Source: Sphingorhabdus sp. Alg239-R122 (GTDB lineage Bacteria > Pseudomonadota > Alphaproteobacteria > Sphingomonadales > Sphingomonadaceae). From it: a stretch of DNA of 64,000 nt. Both the position numbers and the translations under genes were made by a program. Shown piece by piece: positions 13,394 to 37,123 of this stretch; positions within the stretch are counted from its first letter, which is position 1; each line of letters opens with the position of its first letter. The notes under the pieces are model-generated. The model searched no databases. It was not told where the DNA came from and saw only the letters and a list, made by a program, of their open reading frames with translations. The DNA lies in NCBI RefSeq assembly GCF_900537065.1, contig NZ_UNRC01000001.1, positions 186,001 to 250,000 on the forward strand, read 5' to 3'.

Positions 13394-13738
13394 ATGATGC
13401 ACGTGTCACTGGTTTTGGCTCTTTTACTGACGTTTGTGCAGGGTGATACGTTTGATAAGGCACGCAAAGCCTATTCGAACTGCATAATTGACGCCATGCA
13501 TGCGCAGCTGGAAAGCGAAGGCACCAAGGAAGTGTTTCAGACAGAAGCGAATGCGAAATGTACTGCACAACGCGCGAAATATCGCGAGGCGATCATCACG
13601 GAAGAGCTGAAATATGGAGCAAGCCGCAAGGAAGCTGAGGAATATGCGGACGAAGAAGCCGAAGGTTTGCTTGCTGGCTGGGTGGATGGGTTCAATGACT
13701 ATAAAGCCACGAATACGCGACCCACGAAAGAAAGGTAG
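13394..13738 (+). CDS. Small secreted protein of unknown function
   Basis: 114 residues, not recognised. The start region (MMHVSLVLALLLTFVQGD) looks like a short signal peptide with cleavage near residue 18. The mature part is hydrophilic, helical and Glu/Ala/Lys-rich, with two Cys (SNCIID and NAKCTAQ, about 30 residues apart) that could form a disulfide in the periplasm. GGGGA lies just upstream, giving good spacing to either ATG 13394 or the adjacent ATG 13397. It has its own promoter-like sequence and converges on the PilZ gene. Product and function unknown. Confidence 0.6.
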   Translation: MMHVSLVLALLLTFVQGDTFDKARKAYSNCIIDAMHAQLESEGTKEVFQTEANAKCTAQRAKYREAIITEELKYGASRKEAEEYADEEAEGLLAGWVDGFNDYKATNTRPTKER

Positions 13739-13768
13739 TACCGCCTTCGGCGAGTTTAAGCGTTTCGG

Positions 13769-14113
13769 TTAACAGGCGGCCTTTTGGTGCCTTCCATTCA
13801 CATATTGAATGATATGATCGAAAACGGCCGGGTGCAGTGGGGCTATGAACATGGCTCCATAACGGTCGCCTTCAATCCATTTGATCTCTGCTTCCAGCGC
13901 TTCAAGCCCCGGGATCCTGAGATTAACTCGTGTACCGAGATTGAACTTGAACGGATGTTCCACCCGGAAACCGAGCTGTGAAATATCAGTCAGACGTGTC
14001 TTGTAATAGGAATATCCGAACTGCCTGATTTCCGCAGAAATCTCGACATCCGCACGGATCGCTGCCCGGCGGCTGGTAAATGGATCATCTTTTCGTCTGT
14101 CAATATGCAGCAT
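13769..14113 (-). CDS. PilZ domain protein
   Basis: A 114-residue stand-alone PilZ domain, a family that often binds cyclic di-GMP. An RRAAIRADVEI stretch (about residues 15-25) stands in the place of the RxxxR motif. It is followed by LTDISQLGFRVEHP, matching the D/NxSxxG element. The usual beta-barrel pattern continues (VNLRIPGLEALEAEIKWIEGDRYGAMF). It could therefore act as a c-di-GMP receptor for motility, envelope or exopolysaccharide control, but no target gene is adjacent. It is transcribed away from the AT-rich gap that precedes the radical SAM genes. Confidence 0.8.
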   Translation of the reverse strand: MLHIDRRKDDPFTSRRAAIRADVEISAEIRQFGYSYYKTRLTDISQLGFRVEHPFKFNLGTRVNLRIPGLEALEAEIKWIEGDRYGAMFIAPLHPAVFDHIIQYVNGRHQKAAC

Positions 14114-14487
14114 TACGTGGTTCGTCCTGGAAATCTGGTCAGATTGATCTATGCTACAAAGACCCTAAAAAACTGTTACGCAATATCGATTTTTTATATT
14201 TTAATGTAAATATTGATAAATGGATTTATATATCCATACTGAAATGATTTCATATAAAATAAGTTCAGTTGAACATTTAGATTTTTTATATAATATATTG
14301 TAGAGTTCTCGTTTTTTCAAAAATTAACATGACGTCTATTTTATACAATCATTTCATAAAATTTACATTTATACACTTGTAAATAGAAGATTGGTATCAA
14401 TTAAAAATATTATAATAATACATTGAAGAACCAACATCGGATCGCCGGTCGCATTTAGAGTTAATTTGGATTGCGGGCGATTTGAAC
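14114..14487. other. Very AT-rich gap with inverted repeat and TATAAT
   Basis: 374 bases without a gene. The line 14281-14340 is about 20% GC by hand count, far below its surroundings. It holds an inverted repeat, ATTTACA-N10-TGTAAAT (14361-14384), and a perfect TATAAT at 14411-14416 without a convincing -35. It also has several A/T runs and a GGAT/ATCC palindrome near 14221-14236. It is the upstream region of both the PilZ gene and the radical SAM unit and probably contains their promoters. The composition would suit binding by nucleoid proteins that silence acquired DNA. Confidence 0.5.
14361..14384. repeat. Inverted repeat, possible operator of the radical SAM unit
   Basis: Perfect 7-bp arms ATTTACA and TGTAAAT separated by 10 bases, lying just upstream of a TATAAT box and about 100 bases before the first radical SAM gene. 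Size and position suit a dimeric repressor or activator site. No regulator gene is adjacent. Confidence 0.3.
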
Positions 14488-15555
14488 ATGCATTTATCTG
14501 ACATATTGAAAATACGTTCCCAACCTGGAGCAGGTATTTCCATTGGTTTGACCAGAAAATGCCCTCTGAGCTGTGCTCATTGCTCTACAAATTCATCACT
14601 GCAAAGCGAAGAATATCCGGAAGACAGGTTCGTCCGTTTCGTTGGTACATTTTCTCCGCAGCACCACCCAGAAATCATGGCCCTTTCAGGCGGAGAAGCC
14701 CTTCTTCGGCCAAAACTGATAATGAAACTGGCAAAGATGGCGCGCAGGGCAGGAACAAGCAGCTCTGTATTGTCTGGACTGTTCTTTGCCAGACATCCAA
14801 CAATACCCGCTAATATTGAACGTGCCATTCGTAGTGTTGATCACTTCTCCGTAAGTACGGACGCTTATCATGAGCAGGAAATCCATAGAGACCTGGTTTT
14901 GAAAACACTTGATACGGTGTTGTCTTATGGAACTGATGTCAGCGTACATCTGGTTGGAGCAAATGAAGATGATCCGTTCATTGCGGACGCTACTGCCGAT
15001 ATACAGCAACGTTTTGGGGATGACGTCCCCATTTTAGTCAACCTTCTGGAACCTTTTGGTAGGGCAAGGAAATGGTTTTCCAAAGCCGTACCAGAGGAGC
15101 AGGAGCAGATTAAGGCAAGCCCCTGCCATATGGCTGCATGGCCTGTCATGTCTTATGACGGTACAATCGTGGCTTGCGGTAACGATGATGTGATAGAAAA
15201 ACTTCCTGATCACCTTGTTCTTGGTCATGCGATGACAGACAGCTGGCAAACAATTAGTGAAAGAAGCGCTTCATCATGCACATTACGTGCAATCCGGCTT
15301 TATGGACCGGAATTTACGGTGAACCGGTTTTCGAGCCAAAAACCTGACTGTACAGGATATTGTGACACTTGCATCAACATGCAGCCAACCCGCGACTTTG
15401 GCAAAAACCTGAATAAGCACATGACATCTCCTTCGATCCGTCTTCTGGAGGACACTGTGGCCGTCTTGCGTCTAGAGGCAGGTGCGGAGGCATTTGCTCG
15501 TTCAGAGGGTACAGCCAAATTTTCTGACCTGGTTTCATTGGGAAGGGATGGCTAA
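14488..15555 (+). CDS. Radical SAM protein with SPASM/twitch-like Cys-rich C-terminus (first of pair)
   Basis: A 355-residue radical S-adenosylmethionine enzyme. Cys25, Cys29 and Cys32 (CPLSCAHC) bind the catalytic 4Fe-4S cluster. LSGGEALL (66-73) is the SAM-binding GGE motif, and SVSTDAYH (121-128) follows. The C-terminal part carries Cys213, Cys230, Cys264, Cys288, Cys292 and Cys295, spaced like an auxiliary cluster domain found in peptide-modifying enzymes. No N-terminal leader-peptide recognition (PqqD-like) domain is present. ATG 14488 was chosen over a TTG two codons earlier; there is only a weak GCGGGCG upstream. It overlaps the next gene by one base (TAATG). The two enzymes share YDGxxxACxNxDVI and STDA(Y/F)H, so they are paralogues. 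Substrate inferred, not shown, to be the peptide encoded two genes downstream. Confidence 0.85.
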   Translation: MHLSDILKIRSQPGAGISIGLTRKCPLSCAHCSTNSSLQSEEYPEDRFVRFVGTFSPQHHPEIMALSGGEALLRPKLIMKLAKMARRAGTSSSVLSGLFFARHPTIPANIERAIRSVDHFSVSTDAYHEQEIHRDLVLKTLDTVLSYGTDVSVHLVGANEDDPFIADATADIQQRFGDDVPILVNLLEPFGRARKWFSKAVPEEQEQIKASPCHMAAWPVMSYDGTIVACGNDDVIEKLPDHLVLGHAMTDSWQTISERSASSCTLRAIRLYGPEFTVNRFSSQKPDCTGYCDTCINMQPTRDFGKNLNKHMTSPSIRLLEDTVAVLRLEAGAEAFARSEGTAKFSDLVSLGRDG

Positions 15556-16580
15556 TGCTTATAGAAAAAAATATTCATGGCAGGGCGATTCTCACCCATA
15601 GGGAACTCGAGGAAATCCGTCATACGGCAGACCGTTCGATGTTACTGTTCATTACCGACCGGTGTCCAGTCGGCTGTGCACATTGTTCAGTAGATTCGCG
15701 CATTGACAGCCCCAAAATCACTGACTTTGACCTGTTTGAGAGAATTGTCAGCTGGATAGCCAAAAAAGAACGCCTTGAGGTTGTGGCGATTTCAGGAGGA
15801 GAACCGTTTGTCGAGAAAAGGGCTTTGTTGCATGCCAGTGCCAGATTTCGTGACGCGAACAAGAAAATCGTTGTATTCACAAGTGGGGTATGGGCCAGTG
15901 CAAAACGTATTCCAGACTGGATAGACACAGTGTTGGGACGGGTGGATACAGTCTATCTAAGTACTGACGCATTCCATCAGGATGCAGTAGATGAAACAGC
16001 CTTTGCCCAAGCCGCTCAAACTGTGGTCAGTTCAAATTGCTGGTTAATAATTCAGGCACTGGATCAAGGCGAAGGAGAACAAAAAGCGGTTACATTGCTG
16101 CAGCGTGCTTTGGGGAATGATTACCGGCGCTTTGCTGAAATCAACATTACAAGGCCGCTGGACAATGGTCGCGGTGCAAATGTCTTTCACGTACCAAAAA
16201 GGCTTTCTCCGGAAGATATAGCGCCATGTCACCTGATACGAAATCCAATGATCAGATATGATGGTCGTGTTTCGGCCTGTTGTAACGAAGATGTCATCAT
16301 GGGGTTGGGCCCTGACCAATTGCGGTGCAGTGGCAATGAAGACGTGCAATTTGATCAAGCCATTGCTGATTTCAACTCAAATCCGATGTTAAATGTCGTT
16401 GGTGGTATCGGTCTTGGTCTACTAACCCAACACCCTGCTTTTTCGGCACTTACGGATGGACGGATAGCGTCAACCTGCGATTTATGCTGGAAGGCCCTAG
16501 ATATGTCGAAAACGGTATCGCGTGATGATCCGTTGCTCAACATCCTTGCAGCCTTGCCTGGAAAAGGGGAGGGACAATGA
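15555..16580 (+). CDS. Radical SAM protein (second of pair)
   Basis: A 341-residue radical SAM enzyme, paralogous to its upstream neighbour. The cluster-binding motif is CPVGCAHC (Cys37, Cys41, Cys44), followed by ISGGEPF and VYLSTDAFH. The C-terminal region has APCHLIRNP, then IRYDGRVSACCNEDVIMG and STCDLCW, a shorter set of Cys than in the first protein. This suggests a different auxiliary-cluster content, so the two may do different reactions on one substrate or work as a heterodimer. A 28-residue N-terminal segment precedes the core but does not look like a full peptide-recognition domain. The start overlaps the preceding stop by one base and its end overlaps the oxidase gene by four, implying strict co-expression. 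Confidence 0.85.
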   Translation: MLIEKNIHGRAILTHRELEEIRHTADRSMLLFITDRCPVGCAHCSVDSRIDSPKITDFDLFERIVSWIAKKERLEVVAISGGEPFVEKRALLHASARFRDANKKIVVFTSGVWASAKRIPDWIDTVLGRVDTVYLSTDAFHQDAVDETAFAQAAQTVVSSNCWLIIQALDQGEGEQKAVTLLQRALGNDYRRFAEINITRPLDNGRGANVFHVPKRLSPEDIAPCHLIRNPMIRYDGRVSACCNEDVIMGLGPDQLRCSGNEDVQFDQAIADFNSNPMLNVVGGIGLGLLTQHPAFSALTDGRIASTCDLCWKALDMSKTVSRDDPLLNILAALPGKGEGQ

Positions 16581-17296
16581 AGATGCAAAGCAGGACAAAC
16601 CGCATTTGCAGCAAGCTGGATGTTGTTGCCCCATATATGTTTCAGCAGGCCAGTAAGATTTGGGAACATCCGGATTTTACAGCTGTCTATCTAGGCTATC
16701 TGGAAAAAATGCATTCTGTCGTCCGGTCCGCAGTATCTCTTATGGATTGCGCTATAGATAAGGCTCGGCAAAATTATGAAACCAACCATGCAATTGAATT
16801 ATTTATAGAATATCTACTGCATCACCGCGAAGAAGAAAGAGGACATGATGTCTGGATTCTTGAAGATTACCATGTGGCAGGCGGTGACCCTGAGAACCTG
16901 AAATCCAAAATTCCCTCGGTGGAAGCGGCACATCTTGTTGGAGCCCAGTATTATTGGATCAATCACGCCCACCCCTTCTCAATCCTCGGGCACATGATGG
17001 CGCTTGAAGGATATCATCCTCCGCTCGGCTTTGCTCAGGGTCTGAGTGATAAATCTGGTCTGCCGATAGAAGCTTTTCGCGCCATCAAGCGGCATGAAAA
17101 ACTGGATATTGCGCATAAACGGGAATTGTTCGAATTTATCGATAACCTCGAACTTACAGATAACCATGAAAAACTAATTACCATGAGCGGACTGCATACA
17201 ATGCGCTGTGCTGCCGAACTGCTGGCAACGGTATCTCCGATCTCATGTGGGTCGCATAGCCAGGAAAGTTTCGAAAAGGGTATGCAATCAACATGA
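16577..17296 (+). CDS. Haem-oxygenase-fold iron-containing oxidase
   Basis: A 239-residue all-helical protein resembling the 'iron-containing redox enzyme' / haem-oxygenase-like family (relatives include CADD, TenA and PqqC folds). Candidate metal ligands are arranged as in that family: YLEKMHSVVRSAV (His46), HHREEERGHDVWILEDY (Glu86, His90), MALEGYHPP, and HEKLDIAHKRELFEF. Members use one or two irons, or none in PqqC, for oxidative chemistry on small substrates. The ATG overlaps the stop of the second radical SAM gene by four bases, so it belongs to the same message. Placed beside two radical SAM enzymes and a peptide, an oxidative finishing step comparable with PqqC is a reasonable inference. 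Product not known. Confidence 0.75.
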   Translation: MKMQSRTNRICSKLDVVAPYMFQQASKIWEHPDFTAVYLGYLEKMHSVVRSAVSLMDCAIDKARQNYETNHAIELFIEYLLHHREEERGHDVWILEDYHVAGGDPENLKSKIPSVEAAHLVGAQYYWINHAHPFSILGHMMALEGYHPPLGFAQGLSDKSGLPIEAFRAIKRHEKLDIAHKRELFEFIDNLELTDNHEKLITMSGLHTMRCAAELLATVSPISCGSHSQESFEKGMQST

Positions 17297-17335
17297 TCCG
17301 GCACCCAAATGCCGGTAACATACAGGAGATGAAAA

Positions 17336-17566
17336 ATGGGAAAATCAGCATCAATCAAGAAGGTTGATATGAGCGCGGCAAGGGAGCTGCGCATCAAAAG
17401 CGCCATACCGCAATTTGCGGTGTTGAGCGAAGAGCTCAGGGATCAGGCCTCTCGGCTTGATGCCGATGAGCTGGCAGTCCTGGGCGAGATCAAGAACAAG
17501 CTCAATGAAGGGCTGAGTGCCGATCTTGCAGCTAAGGCTGATACTGTTGGCGGTTTCGTCTGGTAA
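17336..17566 (+). CDS. Candidate RiPP precursor peptide ending GGFVW
   Basis: A 76-residue protein and the last gene of the unit, 39 bases after the oxidase, with a strong AGGAG upstream. The first 60 or so residues are charged, Ala/Leu/Glu/Lys-rich and likely helical (DADELAVLGEIKNKL), like a leader peptide. The end is short and distinct: LAAKADTVGGFVW. A Gly-Gly followed by Phe-Val-Trp at the very C-terminus looks like a core for enzymatic modification. There are no Cys, and the only Trp is the last residue. Mycofactocin precursors similarly end in Val-Tyr, which a radical SAM enzyme modifies. I vaguely recall catalogued radical-SAM-associated small proteins with ELAVL...GG...W ends ('aroma-sacti cluster'), but cannot verify a match. 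A plain small protein remains possible. Confidence 0.65.
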   Translation: MGKSASIKKVDMSAARELRIKSAIPQFAVLSEELRDQASRLDADELAVLGEIKNKLNEGLSADLAAKADTVGGFVW

Positions 17567-17583
17567 AGACGATAGGTAAGCTT

Positions 17584-17625
17584 GGCCGGTATTTTTTTCC
17601 GCATATCCTTTTCGGAAAACCGGTC
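17584..17625 (+). terminator. Strong hairpin after the peptide gene, possible terminator
   Basis: GGCCGGT pairs with ACCGGTC (one G-U), and inside it TTTTCCG pairs with CGGAAAA. It starts 17 bases after the peptide stop codon, where a terminator for the radical SAM unit would be expected. No clear T-run follows the stem, so rho-independent termination is unproven and an mRNA-stabilising hairpin is an alternative. Confidence 0.35.
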
Positions 17626-17707
17626 AGGCTGACCACCTTTCAGGCAAAAGGCATTGCGCCATAATCCGAGGCGGCAAAGTCCATTGTCGATTTACGAAAA
17701 GATTTGC

Positions 17708-17797
17708 TGGCGGACAGGGTGGGATTCGAACCCACGGTACGCTTGCACGCACGCCGGTTTTCAAGACCGGTGCATTCAACCACTCTGCCACCTGTCC
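17708..17797 (-). tRNA. tRNA-Ser (UGA anticodon)
   Basis: A 90-base tRNA with CCA encoded. The acceptor stem GGACAGG pairs with CCTGTCC. The anticodon arm ACCGG-TCTTGAAAA-CCGG places TGA in the loop, and the T-arm reads GTGGGTTCGAATCCCAC. A long variable arm (GTGCGTGCAAGCGTAC region) is typical of serine tRNAs. The D-arm carries GGCAGAGTGGTTGAATGC. It reads UCA and related serine codons. Its 3' end faces the radical SAM unit, the usual orientation for an island integrated at a tRNA, although no repeated 3' tRNA fragment was found on the far side. Confidence 0.97.
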
Positions 17798-26625: not shown

Positions 26626-27957
26626 TTATAATGCTAAAAAACGTCCCCAGTCTTTCTCTGATAGGCGAACATCAACAATTTGCGCATCCTCGCCTTCTGT
26701 AACTGACAAAACCTTTCCATGAGCATGCAACCATGCCATTTTCTGGCCATCTGATAAATCCAGAGTGACTGACCGCAAGCTGTTACCGGCTATCAATGTT
26801 TCCGACACCATATGCGCCAGGTTGTCGACACCCTCTCCCTTCAATGCAGATATAGGGCAATGCGGTGTTTCGGAATGTCCGAATTCCAATACGCCTTTCC
26901 GTGCTTCTTCATCGAGCTGGTCCCATTTATTCCATGCCTCAACAACAGCTATTGAAACATCTTCATCTGTCTCCTGCTCAAACGTATTGATGCCGAGCTC
27001 GGCCAGGATATTCTCCACCTCGATTTTCTGTGCCTGTGTGTCAGGGTGAGAGATATCACGCACATGTATAATCAGGTCGGCGGACAGGACTTCTTCCAGT
27101 GTGGCGCGAAATGCGGCAACAAGCTGTGTAGGTAGATCAGAAACAAAGCCCACAGTGTCGGAAAGAATGGCTTTTTCCAGGCCGCCCAGTTCAACCGAAC
27201 GCATGGTCGGGTCAAGAGTGGCAAAAAGCAGGTCTTCCGCCATGACGTCAGACCCGGTTAACCGGTTGAACAAAGTCGATTTCCCTGCATTGGTATATCC
27301 CACGAGCGCAATGACTGGCCATGGTGCTTTCTGACGCCTTTGCCTGTGTAAAGAGCGTGTTTTTTTGACCTGCTCCAGTTCACGGCGGAGCTTGGCCATA
27401 CGGTCGCGTATCATGCGGCGGTCGGATTCAATTTGTGTTTCGCCAGGACCGCCCAGAAAACCAAAGCCGCCCCGTTGCCGCTCAAGGTGCGTCCAACTTC
27501 TCACCAGCCGACCTGCTTGATAATCCAGATGTGCCAATTCCACCTGCAGCCGTCCCTCAGCAGTTGCGGCACGTTCACCGAAAATCTCCAGGATAAGGCC
27601 AGTACGGTCAATAACCTTGATGTTCAGTCTTTCTTCAAGGTTTCTTTGCTGAATTGCGGATAATGGACCATCAACAATCAGCAATTCAGCTTCTTCAGCA
27701 TGGATAGCGGCTGCTATCCTGTCAATCTGTCCGCCACCAAATAATGTTCCAGGCTTAGCTGTACGAATACGCAAGTCCATAGTTTCACAGACATTAATGC
27801 CAATCGCGGCGGCAAGGCCGACTGCTTCATCAAGCCGAGCATCCGCATTCAAATGCTGCTTGTTCCCCAGATCAGGATAAACGATAACAGCGGATGCGCC
27901 TCGTGCAATTTCGCGGCGTTCATCAGTCGGGAAGCTACCCGTCCCCTGCCCGCTCAA
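26626..27957 (-). CDS. hflX: GTPase HflX
   Basis: A 443-residue ribosome-associated GTPase involved in rescuing or splitting stalled ribosomes. An N-terminal glycine-rich HflX domain is followed by a coiled segment ([24 protein letters not shown]). The G domain has [12 protein letters not shown] (G1), [16 protein letters not shown] (G3) and NKWD (G4). The start is TTG at 27957, overlapping the hfq stop (TTGA), because no in-frame ATG exists near the beginning of the conserved region. The hfq-hflX coupling is an old bacterial arrangement. Confidence 0.94.
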
Positions 27958-28442
27958 TCTTCTTCCATTTCGCTGTCACCATATAAGTCCAATGGTCCAC
28001 TAGGCTGGATGGTTGAGACAGCATGCTTGTAAGCCAACTGTATCATGCCTTCGCGCTCAAGCATCATGCAGAACTGGTCATAGGCAACGACCTGTCCTTG
28101 CAGCATTACACCGTTGACAAGGAACATTGTGACCGACGTTTCTGACTCGCGGACGCTGTTCAGGAAAATTTCCTGCAGCGATTTGTTCTTGTGCGTTGCG
28201 GCGTCCATGGCGTCTGTAAATATACCAGTTTCCATGGGCTGAGACGGCATGACTGTCGATATTGCATGCTTGTAAACCAGCTGTGATTGGCCATCACGCC
28301 GAAGCAGGATCGAAAAATTGTCAAACCATGTGACAATACCCTGCAATTTGACACCTTTGACCAAAAACATGGTCACCGGCGTTTTTGACTTTCGCAAGTT
28401 ATTCAGGAACATGTCCTGTAGATTTTGTGCCTTTTCGGTCAT
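27954..28442 (-). CDS. hfq: Tandem double-domain Hfq
   Basis: 162 residues containing two complete Sm/Hfq domains in one chain, about 8-66 and 89-147, joined by a roughly 22-residue linker. Copy 1 has [23 protein letters not shown] and LVYKHAIST. Copy 2 has [23 protein letters not shown] and LAYKHAVST. Both keep the proximal-site Gln and the YKH motif, so a trimer could form a six-domain ring like normal Hfq. The rim basic patch is weaker in copy 2 (RESE versus RKSK), so the copies may have diverged in RNA contact. A normal Hfq is about 80-100 residues with one domain. ATG at 28442; hflX overlaps downstream and ntrX lies about 100 bases upstream. Confidence 0.95.
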
Positions 28443-28484
28443 CGTGACCCCCGGTCTTGGCGGCTTGATTGCCGCTATATTATG

Positions 28485-28496
28485 TTTGAATTCAAA
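28485..28496. repeat. 12-bp palindrome upstream of hfq
   Basis: TTTGAATTCAAA is a perfect palindrome about 43 bases upstream of the hfq start, in the 103-base ntrX-hfq gap. It could be a regulator site or part of a promoter. Confidence 0.25.
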
Positions 28497-28545
28497 TATC
28501 TGTTACTCTGTTTGTGAAGAAAAATCCATTGCTAATCTAGCCACC

Positions 28546-29928
28546 TCAACTGTCATCAGTATTTTTCTGTCCTGCCAACCCAAGCAGTTTCAATTTGCGA
28601 TGCAGGGCTGAACGCTCCATACCGATGAAATTCGCAGTTTTGGATATGTTTCCGGAAAAACGACGGATCTGTATTTTAAGATACTCACGTTCAAAGCTTT
28701 CACGTGCTTCGCGTAACGGAGCCCCCATAAGTGAAGTTATACCTACACTTCTACTGGAATCGCCTTCAATAAGCTCCACGGGCAGCATATCGAGGTCAAT
28801 CCGCTGCAATCGCCCATGCGGAGCCAGGATTATAGTTCTTTCCACGACATTTCTGAGCTGACGCACATTACCCGGCCAATCATAGCCTTGCATAGCGGCC
28901 ATGGCCTCACTGCTTATTTCTGGTGAGTTCAACGATTGCTCTGCTGCAAATCGTGCGGAATAATGTTCTGTAAGTGCAGGGATATCTTCCCGGCGTTCTG
29001 TAAGGGCAGGGATTTCCACCGGCACCACGTTCAATCTGTAAAACAGGTCTTCGCGGAACTTACCTGATGATATCTCCTCCTCCAGATTGCGGGAGGTTGC
29101 AGATACAATACGCACATCCACCTTGATAGGACGCGAACCACCTACACGCGTGAAGCTCTGGTCAGTCAGGACGCGTAGAATTTTAGCCTGTGTGGCCATT
29201 GGCATTTCGGCGACTTCATCAAGGAAGAGTGTGCCTCCATGCGCATTTTCCAAATGCCCGGCTCTTACCAAACGTCCTTGTGTTTCGGTTCCAAAAAGCT
29301 CTTCTTCAAAACGGTCAGACGTCATCCGTGCCGAATTGACAGTAACAAATGCCGCCTGTGCACGCGGGCTCCATGCATGAAGCAGCCGGGCTGCCACTTC
29401 CTTGCCAACTCCTGCTGGTCCCGTGAAAAGAACTCGGCTCCCGGTATTGGCCACACGCTTCAATGTCGCGCGTACATTGTTGATGACAGTTGAATTTCCG
29501 GTAAGTTCTTCGGATACGCCGAGCTGTTCCTTAAGCCGCTTATTTTCGGAACGAAGCCGCTCTGTTTCGGTTGCACGTGCAACGAGTAGCAATAACCGTT
29601 CAGCCTCAAACGGTTTTTCAATAAAGTCGACCGCACCGCGCGAAATTGCCGATACCGCAGTATCTATATTGCCATGCCCTGAAAAAATGATCACTGGCAG
29701 GTTCGGGTCACGTTTCTTGATGACATCCAGCAAGTCAAGCCCGTCAAGCTTGCTCCCCTTCAGCCATACATCCAGAAGCAAGAGAGATGGTCGGCGTGCA
29801 TCTATTTCTTCCAGTGCGCCATCGCTATCCGCGGCCGTACGGCATTCATAGCCTTCGTCCTCGAGAACTCCGGAAACAAGATCACGAATGTCTTTTTCAT
29901 CATCAACGATAAGGACTTCAAGCGCCAT
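28546..29928 (-). CDS. ntrX: Response regulator NtrX
   Basis: A 460-residue NtrC-family response regulator, partner of the NtrY kinase in nitrogen, redox and envelope control. The receiver domain (1-120) has DDEKD, the phosphoacceptor Asp in LLLDVWLKG, and FIEKPF. The AAA+ domain has Walker A GPAGVGKE, Walker B GGTLFLDEVAEMP and PGNVRQLRN. The GAFTGA loop that contacts sigma-54 is missing: the segment after ELFG reads TETQGRLVRAGHLENAHGG. It may thus act without sigma-54, as reported for some alphaproteobacterial NtrX proteins. The C-terminal Fis-type HTH is NISKTANFIGMERSALHRKLKLLG. Begins 45 bases after the ntrY stop. Confidence 0.93.
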   Translation of the reverse strand: MALEVLIVDDEKDIRDLVSGVLEDEGYECRTAADSDGALEEIDARRPSLLLLDVWLKGSKLDGLDLLDVIKKRDPNLPVIIFSGHGNIDTAVSAISRGAVDFIEKPFEAERLLLLVARATETERLRSENKRLKEQLGVSEELTGNSTVINNVRATLKRVANTGSRVLFTGPAGVGKEVAARLLHAWSPRAQAAFVTVNSARMTSDRFEEELFGTETQGRLVRAGHLENAHGGTLFLDEVAEMPMATQAKILRVLTDQSFTRVGGSRPIKVDVRIVSATSRNLEEEISSGKFREDLFYRLNVVPVEIPALTERREDIPALTEHYSARFAAEQSLNSPEISSEAMAAMQGYDWPGNVRQLRNVVERTIILAPHGRLQRIDLDMLPVELIEGDSSRSVGITSLMGAPLREARESFEREYLKIQIRRFSGNISKTANFIGMERSALHRKLKLLGLAGQKNTDDS

Positions 29929-29973
29929 AGGTAGTTAAGTTCCCTTTGTTTTCTTTAATGTTCATATTTTATT

Positions 29974-32220
29974 TCAGGCATTTACCTTGACTTCCGGCTG
30001 CGCCGCTATGCCATCTGCAACGCTTTTCAACATGGTAGCATCAAGTGTAAGAACAACTTCAGCGCCGCCTGTATCAGCATTGTCAAACGCAATTTCCCCA
30101 AAATGCTCTTCAACAATTTTCTTCACGATGGCGAGGCCCAGTCCGGTGCCTTTTTCGCGTGTGGTAACATAAGGTTCGATAAGCCGATCGCTATCGTCTG
30201 GAAGACCAACACCATTATCAGTTATGGACAAGGTGATATCATCGCCTGTCTGCATGAATTGCACGGAAACCTTGCCGCGATAATCATTATCGGCCGATTT
30301 TTTCTTGCTTTCAATCGATTCAACGGCATTTTTGATAATGTTTGTAATAGCCTGCCCAATCTGGCGGCGATCACAATAGAGCATTATTTCATTGGAATCT
30401 GACAGTAGTTCAAATTCAACACCGCCATGCGCAACATCATGCATGAAGACAGCCTGCTTGACGAGGTCGAAATAATTTTCCTCCCGGAAAACAGGTTTTG
30501 GCATTTTAGCAAATGATGAAAATTCATCGACCATATTACGCAAGTCACCTACCTGCCGAATGATGGTTTCGGTAAGATTGGCAAATATTTCAGGGTCAGA
30601 CACGATTTCTTTTGTGTAGCGCCGTTTCAGCCGTTCCGTTGCAAGCTGGATCGGCGTGAGAGGGTTCTTGATTTCATGGGCAATGCGCTGCGCTACATCT
30701 GACCATGCAGCTTGCCGCTGATCCAGTAATTGCTGGGTAATATCCTCAAATGTAATGACATGGCCGATAGGTTCGCGGACAATTTTGACTGCCAGTGTTA
30801 ACAAGCTGCTGCTGGATGCGAACTGAATGACATTTTCGGTGATTTCAGCTTCAATAAGCTTCGCAAATTGGGGGGCTATATCTGTAAGCTTTTCGCCCAG
30901 CAGTTGTTCATTACCTTCCTTGCGCAATATTTGCTGCGCAGAATTGTTCATTAACCGGATATGACCATCCGTATCGACAGATATGATGCCTGCGGTAGCA
31001 GATTCCACAATGGCTTCGATAAATGCACGGCGATTATCAAGCTGTTCATTGGCGCTCATCAATGCTTGGGTTTGCTGTTCCAGCCGCTGGGCCATGCGGT
31101 TAAATGCTCTGCCCAACATGCCCACTTCGTCACGCCTGACAACCGATGTTACCCGGGGTGTAAAATTACCCATGCTGATTTCACGTGCAGCCACTGCCAA
31201 ATCATCAAGCGGCCTTACCATGCGGTCAGCGAGCCGTAGCGCAGCCCATAACGCAATACCTACAATAAGTAGCGAAACAAAAAACAGAGCCAGATTGAAC
31301 CGCAGCTGCAGATTACTGGTCTGCGCGCTGAATTGGTCATAATCATTCAGCACTTCCTGTGCACGCTCACCTTGGCTGAAAGCGAGAAGATCAGACCTGC
31401 GGGCTGTATAAAGATATATTTCCGCCTGCCTGTCGAGTGGCGCCACTGCTTCCACCCTGTTAGCGGAAACCGATACAAGCATTTCTTCACCATTTTTTAG
31501 CTTGGTGATCAGCTCCTTGTTGATGCGCTCGGTGGACACTTCGTCTGGCCCAACAATAACCGCAACACGCGGCTGCCCGTCCTGCCCTATTTGCAAGATC
31601 GCCGATTGACTTAATGATCGGACCAGCACCTGATAGGAATAGGCTTCCGAAAACTCCGGACTGTCAATCCTGGCCTGGGATAGATATTCGCGTAAATCTT
31701 TGGCTAGTGCTTCCGTCTGGTTGCCGACATCGGTTGTGCTTTGCGCATAATAGCCTTTGGCAAGTTCATTTGCATTTTCCAATATGTTCCGCGAACGGTC
31801 CGAAAACCAGAATTCCACACCATACTGGAATAGTAATGACGCAAAAACGACTACCAATAGCGTGGGAATGGCCGCAAGTAATGAAAACAGGCCAACCAGC
31901 CTAATATGCAATTGGCCGTCGCTTCCACTCTCAGATTTGCGTGCCCTCCCCCGCGCTATGCGTCGTCCAAAAAGCACAAGCAGTGCCATAGCGGGTACCA
32001 GATTTGCCACCAGTAAAGTTGCCGCCATGACAGCAGGTAACAATTTATCTTTTTCCTGATAATCCGATATAATTGAATAACTTATTGCCATAATGATAAT
32101 CAGTATGGCTGCGGCAGATATTTCAAGCAGGGAGAAAAAGCGGTCATTCCTAGCCAGAAGTGCGAGCTTCCTTCGCCATACAGGGCGTTCATTCAGGGAT
32201 GCTGTTGGCGAGGATACCAT
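29974..32220 (-). CDS. ntrY: Sensor histidine kinase NtrY
   Basis: A 748-residue inner-membrane kinase. Two membrane segments near the N-terminus (about 33-90) and more at about 110-130 and 300-330 frame a large extracytoplasmic region. A HAMP domain follows (DRMVRPLDDLAVAAREISMGNF), then a PAS domain (about 385-490). The dimerisation helix has AHEIKNPLTPIQLATERLKRR with the phosphorylated His in AHEIKNP. The ATPase domain has NIIKNAVES, DNGVGLPDD and GTGLGLAIVKKI. It phosphorylates NtrX, encoded next. The 60 bases from the ntrC stop to ntrY hold no gene. Confidence 0.94.
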   Translation of the reverse strand: MVSSPTASLNERPVWRRKLALLARNDRFFSLLEISAAAILIIIMAISYSIISDYQEKDKLLPAVMAATLLVANLVPAMALLVLFGRRIARGRARKSESGSDGQLHIRLVGLFSLLAAIPTLLVVVFASLLFQYGVEFWFSDRSRNILENANELAKGYYAQSTTDVGNQTEALAKDLREYLSQARIDSPEFSEAYSYQVLVRSLSQSAILQIGQDGQPRVAVIVGPDEVSTERINKELITKLKNGEEMLVSVSANRVEAVAPLDRQAEIYLYTARRSDLLAFSQGERAQEVLNDYDQFSAQTSNLQLRFNLALFFVSLLIVGIALWAALRLADRMVRPLDDLAVAAREISMGNFTPRVTSVVRRDEVGMLGRAFNRMAQRLEQQTQALMSANEQLDNRRAFIEAIVESATAGIISVDTDGHIRLMNNSAQQILRKEGNEQLLGEKLTDIAPQFAKLIEAEITENVIQFASSSSLLTLAVKIVREPIGHVITFEDITQQLLDQRQAAWSDVAQRIAHEIKNPLTPIQLATERLKRRYTKEIVSDPEIFANLTETIIRQVGDLRNMVDEFSSFAKMPKPVFREENYFDLVKQAVFMHDVAHGGVEFELLSDSNEIMLYCDRRQIGQAITNIIKNAVESIESKKKSADNDYRGKVSVQFMQTGDDITLSITDNGVGLPDDSDRLIEPYVTTREKGTGLGLAIVKKIVEEHFGEIAFDNADTGGAEVVLTLDATMLKSVADGIAAQPEVKVNA

Positions 32221-32280
32221 GTGGCCTTCTTACAACAGTTGGGTTGCAAAAAAACCAGAAAATTACTTTTTATCGCAACA

Positions 32281-33711
32281 TTATCGTATTTTTTGCTCCG
32301 CATGTCGCAATTCATCCGCGTCAATATCATAATTGGTCAGTTTTTTGCGCAGGGTGTTACGGTTGATTCCAAGCGTTTCAGCTGCCTTTAGCTGGTTACC
32401 ACCACATTGTTTCATGATATGACGCAGTAGCGGAACTTCAAATGCCTCAAGTGCGCGAAGATAAACCTGACCATCATCAATTGTATGAGATGACAGGTAA
32501 GTTTTAACCGCCTCGCTTAAATCCGCGGTCTGAACTGCGCTGCTTTTGTCAGAGACGTCATCCAAAAATGGCGCAATCATATCGGCCGTGACCGTTTCAT
32601 CCCTGCTGAATACCGCGATACGGTAAATCAGGTTTTTAAGCTCCCGGACATTACCGCTCCAATATTGCTGCCTGAGCAGGTCACGTGCGGCCTTGTCCAG
32701 TTCACGAAGTGGCAGGCCTTCGGACACTGCCATACGGGCAAAATGTTTCACAAGCGCGTCAATATCTTCGCGTCTCTCGCGTAGTGGCGGCAAGTCAATC
32801 GGCACGACGTTGATGCGGTAATACAGGTCTTCGCGAAAATCACCCTGTTCGATGAGTGTTCGAAAGTCCTTGTTCGTTGCACAGATTATCCTGACATCAA
32901 GCGTAATATCCTGCTTGCCGCCAACACGTGTGATACGCCCAGACTGCAATGCTCGTAGCAACCGTGTTTGTGCCTGCATTGGCATATCACCAATTTCGTC
33001 CAGGAATAGTGTCCCACCATTGGCCTGTTCGAATTTGCCGATATACTGGTTCACAGCACCTGTAAAAGCGCCCTTTTCATGACCGAACAGTTCTGACTCG
33101 ATCAGTTCTGCAGGAATGGCAGCCATGTTGACTGCAACAAACGGTTTTTCCCTGCGATGCCCCAAATTGTGAATCGCATCGGCGACGAGTTCCTTACCGG
33201 TGCCGGACTCGCCCAATAGCAACACTGTCAGGTCATTGCGCAGGACGCGTGTGATCATACGGTACACATCCTGCATTGCGGGACTTCGGCCTACAAGCGG
33301 TAAGTTGTCAGCATCGGATGTGGGTGAAAGGCCTATTGTGTCTGCCTTGGAACTGTTTATGGCCTGTGAAGCGGCATCGACAAGTTCATCAAGATCGAAA
33401 GGTTTTGGAAAGTATTCAAACGCCTCGGTTTCGGAAGCCCTTACCGCTGTATCAAGTGTATTTTGTGCGGATAAAATAATGACCGGCATATCCGGGAAAC
33501 CCTGCTTCACGGTTGTCAGGCTTTTAATACCATCACCATCGCTCAGCATGACATCAGTCAACATTAGCATATACCTGTTTTGCGCTAGTAGAAGGTCGCG
33601 CTGAGCAATGGAGTCACAGCTATCGATAGACCAGCCCTCATCTCGCAATGCAGCCGTAATCACGTGCGATATGGACTTGTCATCTTCAACCAGCAATATG
33701 CGTGTCATCAC
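32281..33711 (-). CDS. ntrC: Nitrogen regulation response regulator NtrC
   Basis: A 476-residue sigma-54-dependent enhancer-binding protein that turns on nitrogen-scavenging genes. Receiver domain: VEDDKS, LMLTDVMLSDGDG with the phosphorylated Asp, and YFPKPFDL. The AAA+ core is complete: LGESGTGKELVA (Walker A), HEKGAFTGAVN (GAFTGA intact), and GGTLFLDEIGDMP. The Fis HTH at the C-terminus is GGNQLKAAETLGINRNTLRKKL. The start has tandem ATGATG; it begins 11 bases after the ntrB stop, so the two are co-transcribed. Confidence 0.96.
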   Translation of the reverse strand: MMTRILLVEDDKSISHVITAALRDEGWSIDSCDSIAQRDLLLAQNRYMLMLTDVMLSDGDGIKSLTTVKQGFPDMPVIILSAQNTLDTAVRASETEAFEYFPKPFDLDELVDAASQAINSSKADTIGLSPTSDADNLPLVGRSPAMQDVYRMITRVLRNDLTVLLLGESGTGKELVADAIHNLGHRREKPFVAVNMAAIPAELIESELFGHEKGAFTGAVNQYIGKFEQANGGTLFLDEIGDMPMQAQTRLLRALQSGRITRVGGKQDITLDVRIICATNKDFRTLIEQGDFREDLYYRINVVPIDLPPLRERREDIDALVKHFARMAVSEGLPLRELDKAARDLLRQQYWSGNVRELKNLIYRIAVFSRDETVTADMIAPFLDDVSDKSSAVQTADLSEAVKTYLSSHTIDDGQVYLRALEAFEVPLLRHIMKQCGGNQLKAAETLGINRNTLRKKLTNYDIDADELRHAEQKIR

Positions 33712-33722
33712 TCGACTTCCTT

Positions 33723-34820
33723 CTAATTTTCGTAGCTGGGTAAAAGCAGTCGAAAGTGGCTTAAACCGCGTATTGCGTCGCGTTCATAATAAACGCGGCC
33801 CTGCATGTCAGTGACAAGTTTTTGCACCAGGGCTAATCCTAGCCCCTGCCCGTTTGTTTTGCTTGTTACAAAAGGTGAAAAAAGATGTTCGGCAATATCT
33901 TCGGAAACGCCGGGGCCATTATCAGAAATCGTGATTTCTATCGGCAATGCCTTGGCTTTATCGCTCCCGGGCAAGCGAAATTTGACACCGCTGGAATAAC
34001 GGGTCGTAATGGTAATTTGCGGTTTCTGTGCATCATGGCACGCTTCGATCGCGTTACTGAACAAGTTTAGGAATATCTGAGCCAGTGCATCACGTACCCC
34101 GCCCACTGTCGGCAATGATGGGTCATATTCTTCATAAAATGTCACGCTAGATACCTGTGCAGCTTCTGCTACAGCGCGGGCATGAGCCAAAATTTCATAT
34201 ATATTGCATGGTTCAGGTGGTTGTACAGTCTGGCTACCCAGTGACTGCATCTGGTCCACGAGTTTGGCGATACGTTCGACTTCCGTGCGGATAAGCTGTG
34301 TAAGCGGTTTATCCTTATCCTGAAGTTTACGCTCCAATAGCTGTGCAGCGCCTTTTATCCCCGCCAGTGGGTTTTTGATTTCATGCGCTAGAATGTCCGG
34401 TGACTGAACACGCAGGCTGGCACCTGTTTCCTTATGCGGCGATCCAAGAAGCAAAGAAGGGCTAGGCTCTGAAAAAGTAACAATTCTCCACCCATGGCTT
34501 TGGGTCACTGAAGCAATTGCAATATCGACATCATATGCCCCGCCAGATTGCGTTTCCAGCGGGGTCATGCGCGCTACCATATCTGCATTTGCATCATGCA
34601 ATGCACGTTCCACACGCTGATCTTTAAATTGCAGAACTGATCCTATATCCCTGCCCTGAAGCGTTTTTGCACTTTGTCGCAGGAAGTTTTCTGCAGCCGG
34701 GTTTGCCACGGATATCAGATTGTCAGGGGAAACAAGAAGATAGGGAAATGGCAGGCATGAAATTTGGGCCGCTAAATCAGGCTGCAAATCATACTCTATC
34801 TGCTTTTCTGGCTGTTTCAC
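33723..34820 (-). CDS. ntrB: Nitrogen regulation histidine kinase NtrB
   Basis: A 365-residue cytoplasmic kinase/phosphatase that controls NtrC phosphorylation and is itself governed by PII in the family. It has no membrane segment. A PAS domain fills about residues 20-110. The phosphoacceptor region is DILAHEIKNPLAGIKGAAQLLERKL with its conserved His. The ATPase domain carries NLFSNAIEAC, DNGPGVSEDIAEHLFSPFVTSK and GQGLGLALVQKL. It follows dusB on the same strand by only 5 bases, the common dusB-ntrB-ntrC order in alphaproteobacteria. Confidence 0.95.
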   Translation of the reverse strand: MKQPEKQIEYDLQPDLAAQISCLPFPYLLVSPDNLISVANPAAENFLRQSAKTLQGRDIGSVLQFKDQRVERALHDANADMVARMTPLETQSGGAYDVDIAIASVTQSHGWRIVTFSEPSPSLLLGSPHKETGASLRVQSPDILAHEIKNPLAGIKGAAQLLERKLQDKDKPLTQLIRTEVERIAKLVDQMQSLGSQTVQPPEPCNIYEILAHARAVAEAAQVSSVTFYEEYDPSLPTVGGVRDALAQIFLNLFSNAIEACHDAQKPQITITTRYSSGVKFRLPGSDKAKALPIEITISDNGPGVSEDIAEHLFSPFVTSKTNGQGLGLALVQKLVTDMQGRVYYERDAIRGLSHFRLLLPSYEN

Positions 34821-34825
34821 CGCTA

Positions 34826-35821
34826 TCAGGCTGCCGCTTTGCAGAGCCAGGGTGCGTAGAACCGTTCAAGCAGTTCCAGTGCTTCCTGCACATTTTCAAT
34901 TCTATTAAACGTATTCCGGAATTCTGCTGAACCAGTCAGGCCTTTTGTATACCAACCAATATGCTTGCGGGCGACGCGTACTCCGATATTGTCGCCATAT
35001 AGCTCCATCATCGCCTTGTAATGTTCAACAATGACTTCATACTGTTCGGCGATATCAGGATCTGCACATTGTTCGCCATGCGCAAACCAGTGCATGACCT
35101 GTCCCAGCAGCCATGGTTTACCATAGGCCCCTCGTCCAATCATAATGCCATCCGCGCCGCTTTGCTCAAGAGCCATTTCAGCATCATTGACATTACAGAT
35201 ATCTCCATTTGCGATGACGGGAACGGAAACTGCGTCTTTCACATTACGGATAAATGACCAGTCTGCCTGCCCCTTGTACATTTGGCAGCGCGTCCGGCCA
35301 TGCACTGTTATCAGCTGTGCACCAAGATCTTCGGCAATATGCGCAAGTTCAGGGGCATTAAGGCTATCATGGTCCCAGCCCATACGCATCTTGACCGTGA
35401 CAGGGACACCTACTGCCTTTACGGTTGCATCGATCAGCCTTGCAGCTAGTGGCAGGTCGCGCATAAGCGCCGAGCCCGCATCGCCATTTACCACTTTTTT
35501 GACAGGGCACCCCATATTTATATCGATAATTTCGGCGCCCCGGTCTTCGTTGAGCTTAGCTGCTTCTGCCATGGCGTTGGGGTCGCATCCTGCCAGCTGC
35601 ATGGACACGGGTTCTTCGACCGAATCCCAGGCTGCTTTTTGCAGCGATTGGCGGGTTTCGCGGATCATGGCCTGACTGGCAATCATTTCGGTGACGTTAA
35701 GGCCTGAGCCATAGCGACGTACAATACGCCGGAACGGCATATCGGTGACGCCCGTCATCGGCGCCAATATAACAGGAGATGCAATTTCAATATTGCCGAT
35801 TTTGACAGGTTTTAGCGTCAT
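34826..35821 (-). CDS. dusB: tRNA-dihydrouridine synthase DusB
   Basis: A 331-residue FMN enzyme that reduces uridine to dihydrouridine in the D-loop of tRNAs. Motifs: [37 protein letters not shown] with the catalytic Cys, [34 protein letters not shown] and [14 protein letters not shown]. The ATG at 35821 was chosen over an in-frame ATG 26 codons upstream because the conserved [10 protein letters not shown] begins right after it. The longer version would also fill the gap to divergent ispDF. First gene of the dusB-ntrBCYX run. Confidence 0.94.
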
Positions 35822-35917
35822 GTCGTCTGGTAACTCGCAAATATGCCTAAAATTTAGGCAGTCATTATCGGTAAACGCGCTGGCGGGCAAGCAAGACATG
35901 TTCTAAAGCTTGTGAAA

Positions 35918-37123
35918 ATGCATAATCCTGAAGAAAAAGAGCCTGCACCTTCCCAAAGCATCAATCGTGTTGCGTTGATTGTAGCTGCCGGTAAGGGTGT
36001 CAGGGCTGGCGGTGTTTTACCCAAACAGTTTCGTGAATATATCGGCAAACCTTTGTTGCGTCATAGCGTGGAAGCATTTCAGAATAGCGGTCTTTTTGAC
36101 CGCTGTGTGGTCGTAATTGCGCATGACCAGAATGATATGGCCGCCGCTGCCTTAAATGGTCTGAAAGATATCAAATTTCTGCATGGCGGGGACACCCGCC
36201 AGAAATCTGTTTACAATGGTCTGGCCAGCATTGCCGAAAAAGGCGGCTGTGATGAAGTGTATATCCATGACGCCGCACGTCCGCGGTTAAGCTTTCGCGT
36301 TATTCAAAAACTGGTATTTGCATTACGCGAAAATAAGGGTGTGGTGCCAGTTTTACCGGTCGTGGACAGTTTATCACGGCGGCAGGATGGTCATCTGGCA
36401 GCTGCAATTAACCGGGATGGCCTGTGCCGTGTACAAACGCCGCAGGCTTTTCATTTTGATGCAATATATAATGCGCACAAAGCATATGAAGCTGAAACAG
36501 AGGCCACGGATGATGCCCGTGTTGCGCAGGCCGCGGCTATTGATATAGCATTGATAGATGGCGATGAAGCCTTGCGCAAAATAACATTTCCAGAAGATTT
36601 CAATGAAGTTGATAGCGAGCAAATTATGTCCAGCCATATAACCCGCACTGGTATGGGGTTTGATGTTCACCGATTGGTCAAAGGTGAGGAATTATGGTTG
36701 TGCGGCCTGCTGATTCCACATGACATGGGCCTAGCGGGGCACAGCGATGCAGACGTTGCGCTTCACGCCATCACTGATGCGTTGCTTGGATCAATAGCGG
36801 ATGGAGATATTGGTGATCATTTCCCACCTTCGGATGAAAGGTGGAAAGGCGCGAGATCTGATGTCTTTGTTGAATTTGCGAGTGAGCGCGTCAGGACGCA
36901 GGGCGGCAGCATCAATAATATTGATCTGACAATTATATGCGAAACCCCTAGAATCGGCCCTTACCGCGATGATATGCGGCAAAGGCTTGCTGATATGCTA
37001 GGCTTGGATATAGGTCAGGTAAGTGTCAAAGCCACCACGACGGAAAGGCTGGGTGCTACGGGTCGCGGGGAAGGTATTGCGGCACAGGCTGTAGTGACAA
37101 TAGCGATAGCGAAACCGGCATGA
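35918..37123 (+). CDS. ispDF: Bifunctional IspD/IspF (MEP pathway)
   Basis: A 401-residue fusion carrying two steps of isoprenoid precursor synthesis. The N-terminal half is IspD (MEP cytidylyltransferase): LIVAAGKGVRAGGVLPKQF, HDAARP and VQTPQAF (about 15-225). The C-terminal half is IspF (MEcPP synthase): GMGFDVHRLVKG with metal-binding Asp/His, GLAGHSDADVALHAITDALLG, DIGDHFPPSD, and ATTTERLGATGRGEGIAAQA. Such fusions are usual in alphaproteobacteria. ATG 35918 was chosen; a GTG two codons earlier is equally possible. It overlaps pncC by four bases. Confidence 0.96.
   Translation: MHNPEEKEPAPSQSINRVALIVAAGKGVRAGGVLPKQFREYIGKPLLRHSVEAFQNSGLFDRCVVVIAHDQNDMAAAALNGLKDIKFLHGGDTRQKSVYNGLASIAEKGGCDEVYIHDAARPRLSFRVIQKLVFALRENKGVVPVLPVVDSLSRRQDGHLAAAINRDGLCRVQTPQAFHFDAIYNAHKAYEAETEATDDARVAQAAAIDIALIDGDEALRKITFPEDFNEVDSEQIMSSHITRTGMGFDVHRLVKGEELWLCGLLIPHDMGLAGHSDADVALHAITDALLGSIADGDIGDHFPPSDERWKGARSDVFVEFASERVRTQGGSINNIDLTIICETPRIGPYRDDMRQRLADMLGLDIGQVSVKATTTERLGATGRGEGIAAQAVVTIAIAKPA

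Follow-up and report, generated by a model that had tools for sequence, protein, structure and literature searches.

The epipeptide pathway EpeX/EpeE (YydF/YydG) of Bacillus subtilis includes a protease, EpeP, and an exporter, EpeAB. The operon is epeXEPAB (PMC12871923), and its radical S-adenosylmethionine (rSAM) enzyme, EpeE, abstracts the Cα hydrogen of Val36 and Ile44, contains two clusters, and apparently acts independently of the leader; Cys223 is the proposed hydrogen donor, and its mutation leads to peptide breakage (PMC8326336; here and below, articles given by PMC number are cited from the portions that were accessible). Asp210 of EpeE has been probed by a D210A structure. The heme-oxygenase-like dimetal oxidases (HDOs) share a ligand motif of three histidines and three carboxylates (3H/3C), and the substrates of the characterized members are mostly free amino acids or fatty acids (PMC13108848). 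A heme-oxygenase-like (HO-like) enzyme that serves a ribosomally synthesized and posttranslationally modified peptide (RiPP) is already known, because VarO, an HO-like dehydrogenase, is required for the desaturated thiovarsolins, which carry an Arg Cβ=Cγ double bond and are lost when varO is lost (PMC6511847). In this study, we analyzed a stretch of 64,000 nucleotides from Sphingorhabdus sp. Alg239-R122 (contig NZ_UNRC01000001.1, positions 186,001 to 250,000; hereafter, the window), which contains a 3.1-kb cassette of four genes encoding two rSAM enzymes (rSAM1 and rSAM2), an HO-fold protein, and a 76-residue peptide. The cassette resembles the epipeptide pathway with a VarO-like step added, and it is not assigned to either system, because its scores against curated models and several defining features fall short and VarO is likened to the cassette enzyme by description, not by sequence. 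On balance, it is probably a sporadic RiPP maturation cassette, in which the peptide is the precursor, rSAM2 is an EpeE-like epimerase, rSAM1 is a partner without the hydrogen donor, and the HO-fold protein is an HDO that oxidizes the core.

The four genes are a real unit. They are arranged head to tail: the first three overlap by 1 and 4 bases, and 39 bases separate the third from the fourth. Their coordinates, strand, and spacing (Table 1) are exactly those assigned to two rSAM genes, an HO-fold gene, and a 76-residue peptide gene in an earlier reading made from the letters alone (the sequence-only reading). The Pfam scores of the three enzymes exceed the cut-offs (36.1 bits for rSAM1 and 42.0 bits for rSAM2, cut-off 29.5; 34.3 bits for the HO-fold protein, cut-off 28.9), and the Pfam scan of the peptide gave no match. 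The ATG of the peptide gene is preceded by AGGAG, a good ribosome-binding site. Over the whole of the stretch scanned for promoters, 10 promoter-like sites were found, compared with 6.9 (SD 2.7) in shuffled sequences, which gives no evidence of a particular promoter.

All four genes, in the identical order, are also found in the bryozoan symbiont Candidatus Endobugula sertula (Gammaproteobacteria, Cellvibrionales; MDLC01000008.1), with identities in the best tblastn segments of 58% for rSAM1, 53% for rSAM2, 58% for the HO-fold protein, and 51% for the peptide. Among plasmid records, two genes that neighbor the cassette in the window are closest to sphingomonad sequences (lipoamide dehydrogenase, 74 to 79% identity; carboxypeptidase, 61%, compared with 42% for the next genus), so that the two hosts are very likely from different classes. 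This locus is the one relative confirmed among 47 stretches that matched short rSAM2 patterns in a scan of the GTDB species collection; the scan registers only sequences that match one of six eight-residue stretches of rSAM2 exactly, so that distant members can be missed.

The nine C-terminal residues of the peptide, ADTVGGFVW, are identical in the window and in Endobugula. Three of the nine core codons are identical, six are silently changed, and none changes the amino acid, whereas the other 51 aligned codons (of the last 60) comprise 8 identical, 15 silently changed, and 28 nonsynonymous ones, and the aligned leader is 45% identical. All nine core positions fall among the 32 identical residues with a hypergeometric P of 0.0019, for which the core boundary was set after the alignment was seen; none of 5000 shuffles equaled the match between the two peptides. 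The silent-only changes indicate that the core has been under selection since the two lineages parted, and the conservation looks like that expected of a RiPP precursor with a constrained core. Both peptides end with Phe-Val-Trp, and the two species share both aromatic core residues. Tyr is absent from the window peptide, and the single Cys of the Endobugula peptide is located outside the core and is absent from the window peptide. That the four genes serve one shared peptide-modifying pathway, as the sequence-only reading proposed, is supported by the gene order and the peptide C terminus conserved in so distant a genome. In the one relative that was found, the peptide gene is present and its frame is intact.

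Both rSAM enzymes, which are distant paralogues of each other (approximately 27% identity, E ~1e-25), are closest to EpeE. TIGR04078 (YydG/EpeE) is the best NCBIfam model for both (51.7 bits for rSAM1 and 49.7 bits for rSAM2, cut-off 300), and the Endobugula orthologue of rSAM2 scores 53.6 bits. In profile searches of the PDB, the best match was EpeE in each case (8AI6/8AI1, E = 8.8e-11, for rSAM2; 8AI3, E = 1e-4, for rSAM1). For rSAM2, the fold agrees: with an AlphaFold2 model (predicted template modeling score, 0.67), the nine best Foldseek matches were all EpeE chains (E = 1.3e-8 to 7.3e-8), and the five best matches in VIA were EpeE (Z = 14.9 to 15.2), followed by viperin (Z = 13.3). The best VIA alignment of rSAM2 with EpeE covers 260 residues at 4.4 Å (Z = 15.2).

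In the alignment, Cys242-Cys243 of rSAM2 lies on Cys222-Cys223 of EpeE, and the Cys-Cys pair is kept in both rSAM2 orthologues, whereas rSAM1 has Cys230-Gly231 at this position, a Cys-Gly pair found in both rSAM1 orthologues. Cys225, Cys242, Cys308, and Cys311 (rSAM2 numbering) are conserved without exception across rSAM2, its orthologue, and rSAM1, and are likely ligands of an auxiliary cluster. The donor cysteine next to a cluster cysteine is thus kept in rSAM2 and replaced by glycine in rSAM1, from which rSAM2 appears equipped as a Cα epimerase and rSAM1 does not. A valine-containing core is a further likeness to the EpeX/EpeE system, which differs in that the cassette has two rSAM paralogues, one of them without the donor, and an HDO, and in that the other genes of the epe operon have no counterpart in it. 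The SAM motif begins at residue 25 or 37, which leaves no room for an N-terminal RiPP precursor recognition element (RRE) in either rSAM enzyme.

The HO-fold protein contains the 3H/3C set, and Glu87, His90, Glu144, His173, Asp177, and His180 are invariant in all 39 of 39 homologues; based on this pattern, which is also the basis of the metal-site assignment, the protein is a predicted HDO. The motif is shared with AetD, MboA, CADD, and UndA (PMC13108848), whose substrates, unlike the proposed one, are free amino acids, fatty acids, or the enzymes themselves and which do not belong to a two-rSAM peptide cassette. When a profile of 16 HO sequences was compared with the PDB, the best match was 3DDE, an uncharacterized HO fold (E = 7.2e-30); CADD (3.5e-9) and MboA (4.8e-6) also matched, AetD matched weakly (0.012 over 36 positions), and UndA gave no match. 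Generic HO-fold homologues are common (71 of 299 genomes of the phylum, including its own, at E ≤ 1e-3), and at 20 other HO loci examined, some of them on short contigs, no rSAM, peptide, YcaO, or TfuA gene was located nearby (tblastn, E ≤ 0.01). The sequence-only reading had named homologues of the enzymes without the peptide as a point that would tell against it; such homologues are indeed widespread for the HO-fold protein, but they lie outside the group of the cassette proteins.

Apart from the two cassettes, the closest HO-fold homologue that was found is carried by Sinorhizobium fredii megaplasmids (32.5 to 32.7% identity over 95%, E = 1e-30, four records), and it groups with both cassette HO proteins with support of 100/99. 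On megaplasmid psfSMH12a (L073:5132-8687), the HO-fold gene is divergent from genes for a 67-residue peptide, YcaO, and TfuA, and HO-like genes have already been reported in such Sinorhizobium clusters (PMC8120280). This peptide, which ends with GTHIYLNNNHQVICGL and has one Cys, shares the pattern RDxxxxLxxDEmAVL with the window peptide. The cluster is thus similar to the cassette in its HO-fold gene and in a short peptide with a weakly significant leader pattern; it differs in that thioamidation enzymes take the place of the rSAM pair, the C terminus of the peptide is different and contains Cys, and the HO-fold gene is divergently transcribed. The VarO pathway likewise includes YcaO/TfuA, together with a repeated APR core, in contrast to the two rSAM enzymes and C-terminal core of the cassette. 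Neither YcaO nor TfuA, the enzymes of thioamide RiPPs, was found among the four cassette proteins or the five scanned neighbors.

Building on the gene unit, the conserved core, the homologies, and the ligand and cysteine patterns, we propose a substrate, target residues, an order of steps, and a product. The 76-residue peptide would be the precursor and ADTVGGFVW its core. rSAM2 would abstract a Cα hydrogen within the core, most likely that of Val71 and/or Val75; Cys243 would donate a hydrogen back to yield D-Val. Because the donor cysteine is absent from rSAM1, the radical formed by this enzyme must end otherwise than at a thiol, and it may end in a desaturation, in a cross-link to Phe74 or Trp76, or in cleavage. 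The HDO would carry out an O2-dependent oxidation of the core, most likely a desaturation such as that of VarO in thiovarsolin. The unit encodes no dedicated protease, transporter, or RRE, and the leader may be removed by a house-keeping protease or in the rSAM1 step. We regard as rather unlikely a more specific version, in which the Cα radical of rSAM1 is deliberately left unquenched (to form a cross-link to Phe or Trp, a desaturation, or a backbone break that frees the C-terminal fragment and would explain the missing protease) and the HDO oxidizes the Val-Trp part, which would result in an undescribed peptide-derived small molecule. If true, the cassette would represent a RiPP class that combines a dimetal oxidase with two rSAM enzymes of the epimerase type and of opposite fate.

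Several observations weigh against the assignment as an epimerase-containing RiPP cassette. Support for a modification of the peptide by the clustered enzymes is indirect and comes from the conserved order and core. The TIGR04078 scores are far below the cut-off, the identity between rSAM2 and EpeE in the structural alignments is just 14 to 18%, and Asp210 of EpeE is not conserved, its place in rSAM2 being taken by Asn230 or Pro231, according to which chain is aligned. The fold models are modest for rSAM2 (predicted local distance difference test [pLDDT] of 61, built on three sequences) and, for the HO-fold protein, all helical with a pLDDT of 48 (two sequences). The S. fredii HO joins the cassette proteins by a long branch that was flagged by the tree program, and the likeness of the S. 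fredii leader is weak (38 of 5000 shuffles; 12.5 bits against the peptide domain model NF045560; hhalign P = 6.6e-4, probability 27%). The full four-gene set was found in only two loci, and in the Endobugula one, otherwise complete, the rSAM1 orthologue contains one in-frame TAA (L005:5788-5790), so that Endobugula may not need rSAM1, or its assembly may be wrong; the codon reflects either a fault of assembly or incipient decay. The GC content at third codon positions (GC3) of the peptide gene is 0.584, which is similar to that of the flanks and not low as in the enzyme genes.

The distribution of the cassette is sporadic. A two-sequence rSAM2 profile (E ≤ 1e-10) matched only the genome of the window among 298 genomes of its family (0 of the 297 others) and gave no match in either of two congeners. 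In the family of Endobugula, rSAM2 was found in 2 of 144 genomes (E ≤ 1e-8), Endobugula itself and one (G984) with a partial rSAM match of 4e-10. A search of 289 genomes of the class with P0002 matched 37, including its own, at E ≤ 1e-3, and the best of the others (1.1e-6, approximately 100 residues) is a generic rSAM match. The peptide profile matched 3 of 329 genomes of the phylum, including its own, and the other two matches (E = 0.006 to 0.009) have a stop inside. Among plasmid records, rSAM2 was matched in one and rSAM1 in five, all distant, and the peptide in none; the Mycetohabitans and Halocatena plasmid records with rSAM matches have no HO-fold gene annotated nearby. Carriage by phage was considered and rejected: rSAM2 was not found in phage records, scans of IMG/VR yielded no confirmed relative, and matches in PHROGs were generic only.

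The insertion site varies within the genus. The match to congener G002 ends at position 14180 of the window and begins again at 17706; the intervening 1116 bases of G002 (L114:6396-7511) are unlike the window and contain a 192-residue open reading frame (ORF) without a Pfam match. For congener G001, the match is interrupted from 13512 to 17704, an interval that in G001 comprises 245 bases. Both matches resume at the 3' side of the tRNA-Ser(tga) gene, and tRNA genes are a common landing site for foreign DNA. No integrase was evident by eye among the neighboring ORFs, and a search for direct repeats found no duplicated attachment site (att). The GC3 values of the three enzyme genes are 0.42 to 0.44, compared with 0.59 to 0.64 in five flanking genes; among the 32 long open frames of the window, rSAM1 ranks lowest and rSAM2 third lowest, with others close (0.44 to 0.48), and GC content thus argues for acquisition weakly. 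Horizontal acquisition of the cassette is probable and is indicated more clearly by the site and the distribution than by GC. Elsewhere in the window, seven long open frames at 26629-37120 have rather low GC3 (0.44 to 0.52) and are possibly another acquired stretch.

Table 1. Coordinates of the cassette and of adjoining features in the window
Feature	Position	Strand	Description
AT-rich intergenic stretch, likely promoter region of the operon	14114..14487		27% GC (0.273)
rSAM1	14488..15555	+	355 aa; Cys 25/29/32; Pfam Radical_SAM PF04055
rSAM2	15555..16580	+	341 aa; Cys 37/41/44; Pfam Radical_SAM PF04055
HO-fold protein	16577..17296	+	239 aa; Pfam Haem_oxygenas_2 PF14518
Precursor peptide (predicted)	17336..17566	+	76 aa, Cys-free; leader ~1-67, core residues 68-76
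Coding sequence of core ADTVGGFVW	17537..17563	+	9/9 residues identical to Endobugula
tRNA-Ser(tga)	17708..17797	-	3' side borders the variable site occupied by the cassette

None of the five scanned neighbors looks like part of the pathway. According to Pfam, a sulfotransferase-like protein, a 119-residue protein without a name, and a PilZ protein are located upstream, and a lytic-transglycosylase-type protein and a D-Ala-D-Ala carboxypeptidase are located downstream. The sequence-only reading had noted that the unit lacks a transporter, an obvious protease, and a PqqD-like domain, and all three absences hold: Pfam found no transporter in the unit or the five neighbors, and among the four cassette proteins it found neither a PqqD domain or RRE nor a dehydrogenase, a peptidase, or a glycosyltransferase. 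In Endobugula, approximately 0.5 to 1 kb upstream of the cassette, there is a sodium:solute-symporter-like sequence (L005:3646-5150; PF00474, 32.9 bits in the first frame), which is apparently split over several frames and does not belong to a peptide-exporter family, and the other flanking genes are of house-keeping types (HisF-like, HAD hydrolase, and LysR regulator).

The one PqqD-like match of the genome at E ≤ 1 (67.4 bits) lies beyond the window, approximately 100 kb downstream from the cassette, and its block is also present in congener G002, which has no cassette. There (L117:5779-9964), the PqqD-like gene adjoins genes for a sulfotransferase, an HPr-kinase-like P-loop protein (for which Pfam was inconclusive), and an asparagine synthase. 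Together, these genes are reminiscent of a maturation set of the lasso type, although no precursor is obvious. Beside it (L117:4515-5754) are genes for two similar tandem proteins of approximately 200 to 220 residues, the first with a phage tail collar domain (PF07484, 77 bits). A role of the cassette in defense was also considered and rejected, as PADLOC gave only viperin-type pVip matches (26.2 and 17.4 bits for rSAM1 and 26.2 bits for rSAM2), and so was an RNA-linked feature, the tRNA alone being found.

The sequence-only reading had likened the unit specifically to the pathways for pyrroloquinoline quinone (PQQ) and mycofactocin, and this analogy was not supported. The PQQ pathway also has an HO-fold oxidase, and both pathways share with the cassette a peptide, an rSAM enzyme, and an aromatic residue at or near the peptide C terminus. 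The PqqA-type core, however, is Glu...Tyr and has no equivalent in a peptide without Tyr. The rSAM enzymes score 20.9 bits (rSAM1) and 23.5 bits (rSAM2) against the PqqE model TIGR02109, whose cut-off is 381.35, and no mycofactocin model is among the best 25 of their 37 and 38 NCBIfam matches. Membership in either pathway was rejected on the basis of the PqqE scores, the absence of PqqD from the unit, and the distant block of the PqqD-like gene; the HDO-type ligands of the HO-fold protein and the patchy distribution are further differences. The main rival to the epimerase-and-HDO cassette is nevertheless a mycofactocin-like product from Val-Trp, that is, a redox cofactor for which Trp76 would undergo oxidative decarboxylation and be linked to Val or Phe, after which a house-keeping peptidase would free a small Val-Trp or Phe-Val-Trp compound. 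The Gly-Gly-Phe-Val-Trp end of the core recalls MftA, which ends with Val-Tyr after Gly, and another peptidase can replace MftE (PMC7491314); the lack of a transporter in the unit and its neighbors and the invariance of both core aromatic residues also agree with such a product. We consider it unlikely, as the MftA core is Val-Tyr and not Phe-Val-Trp, nine residues are conserved and not two, the rSAM enzymes are nearest to EpeE and not PqqE, the four proteins include no MftB-like RRE, the unit includes no dehydrogenase, peptidase, or glycosyltransferase, and the very patchy distribution is unlike that of an established cofactor. A released cofactor is possible but is not indicated.

It is improbable that the peptide is instead a small helper, i.e., a leader-binding or scaffold protein, and that the enzymes act on a small molecule. 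The mostly small-molecule substrates of characterized HDOs (PMC13108848), the missing protease, and the indirect nature of the evidence for peptide modification speak for a helper, whereas the conserved part is the extreme C terminus, the usual position of a core, with drift in the rest, and the closest HO outside the cassettes adjoins a peptide and thioamide-RiPP enzymes. In addition, residues 27 to 64 of the peptide score just under the cut-off of 30 for NF045560 (aroma_sacti_dom), a domain named after sactipeptide clusters (28.4 bits for the window peptide, with a second score of 29.1). This match and a weak one of the Endobugula peptide to StsA-related sactipeptides (17.7 bits, below the cut-off) might suggest a sactipeptide or ranthipeptide of an "aroma-sacti" kind. 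Such a pathway is highly improbable, because the window peptide has no Cys from which a thioether could form, and the only Cys of Endobugula is outside the core and unshared; Cys thioether chemistry was thus rejected. In 249 genomes of the phylum, NF045560 had 11 matches at E ≤ 0.01, including its own, none above the cut-off, and the window peptide alone was judged plausible, the rest lying within longer frames; the term "aroma-sacti" did not occur in the literature searched. A relic, i.e., a recently acquired and decaying island without present function, would be consistent with the rarity of the cassette, its location beside tRNA-Ser where the genus shows variation, and the interrupted rSAM1 of Endobugula. 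The four genes of the window are nevertheless all open, with tight overlaps and a good ribosome-binding site for the peptide, and selection on the core is evident from its silent-only changes, which makes a relic quite improbable.

Among the matches listed, no description of an HO-like enzyme together with an EpeE-like rSAM pair was found in the open-licence literature. If the RiPP maturation reading is right, the cassette is a minimal, transferable peptide-modifying kit that joins EpeE-type radical SAM and HDO chemistry on a Cys-free core of nine residues, and at 3.1 kb it is small enough for whole reconstitution. It would also be a second kind of RiPP pathway for HDOs, for which the accessible portion of PMC13108848 cites one ribosomal-peptide case. 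The rSAM paralogues with and without the donor cysteine constitute a natural test of how the fate of a peptide Cα radical is decided.

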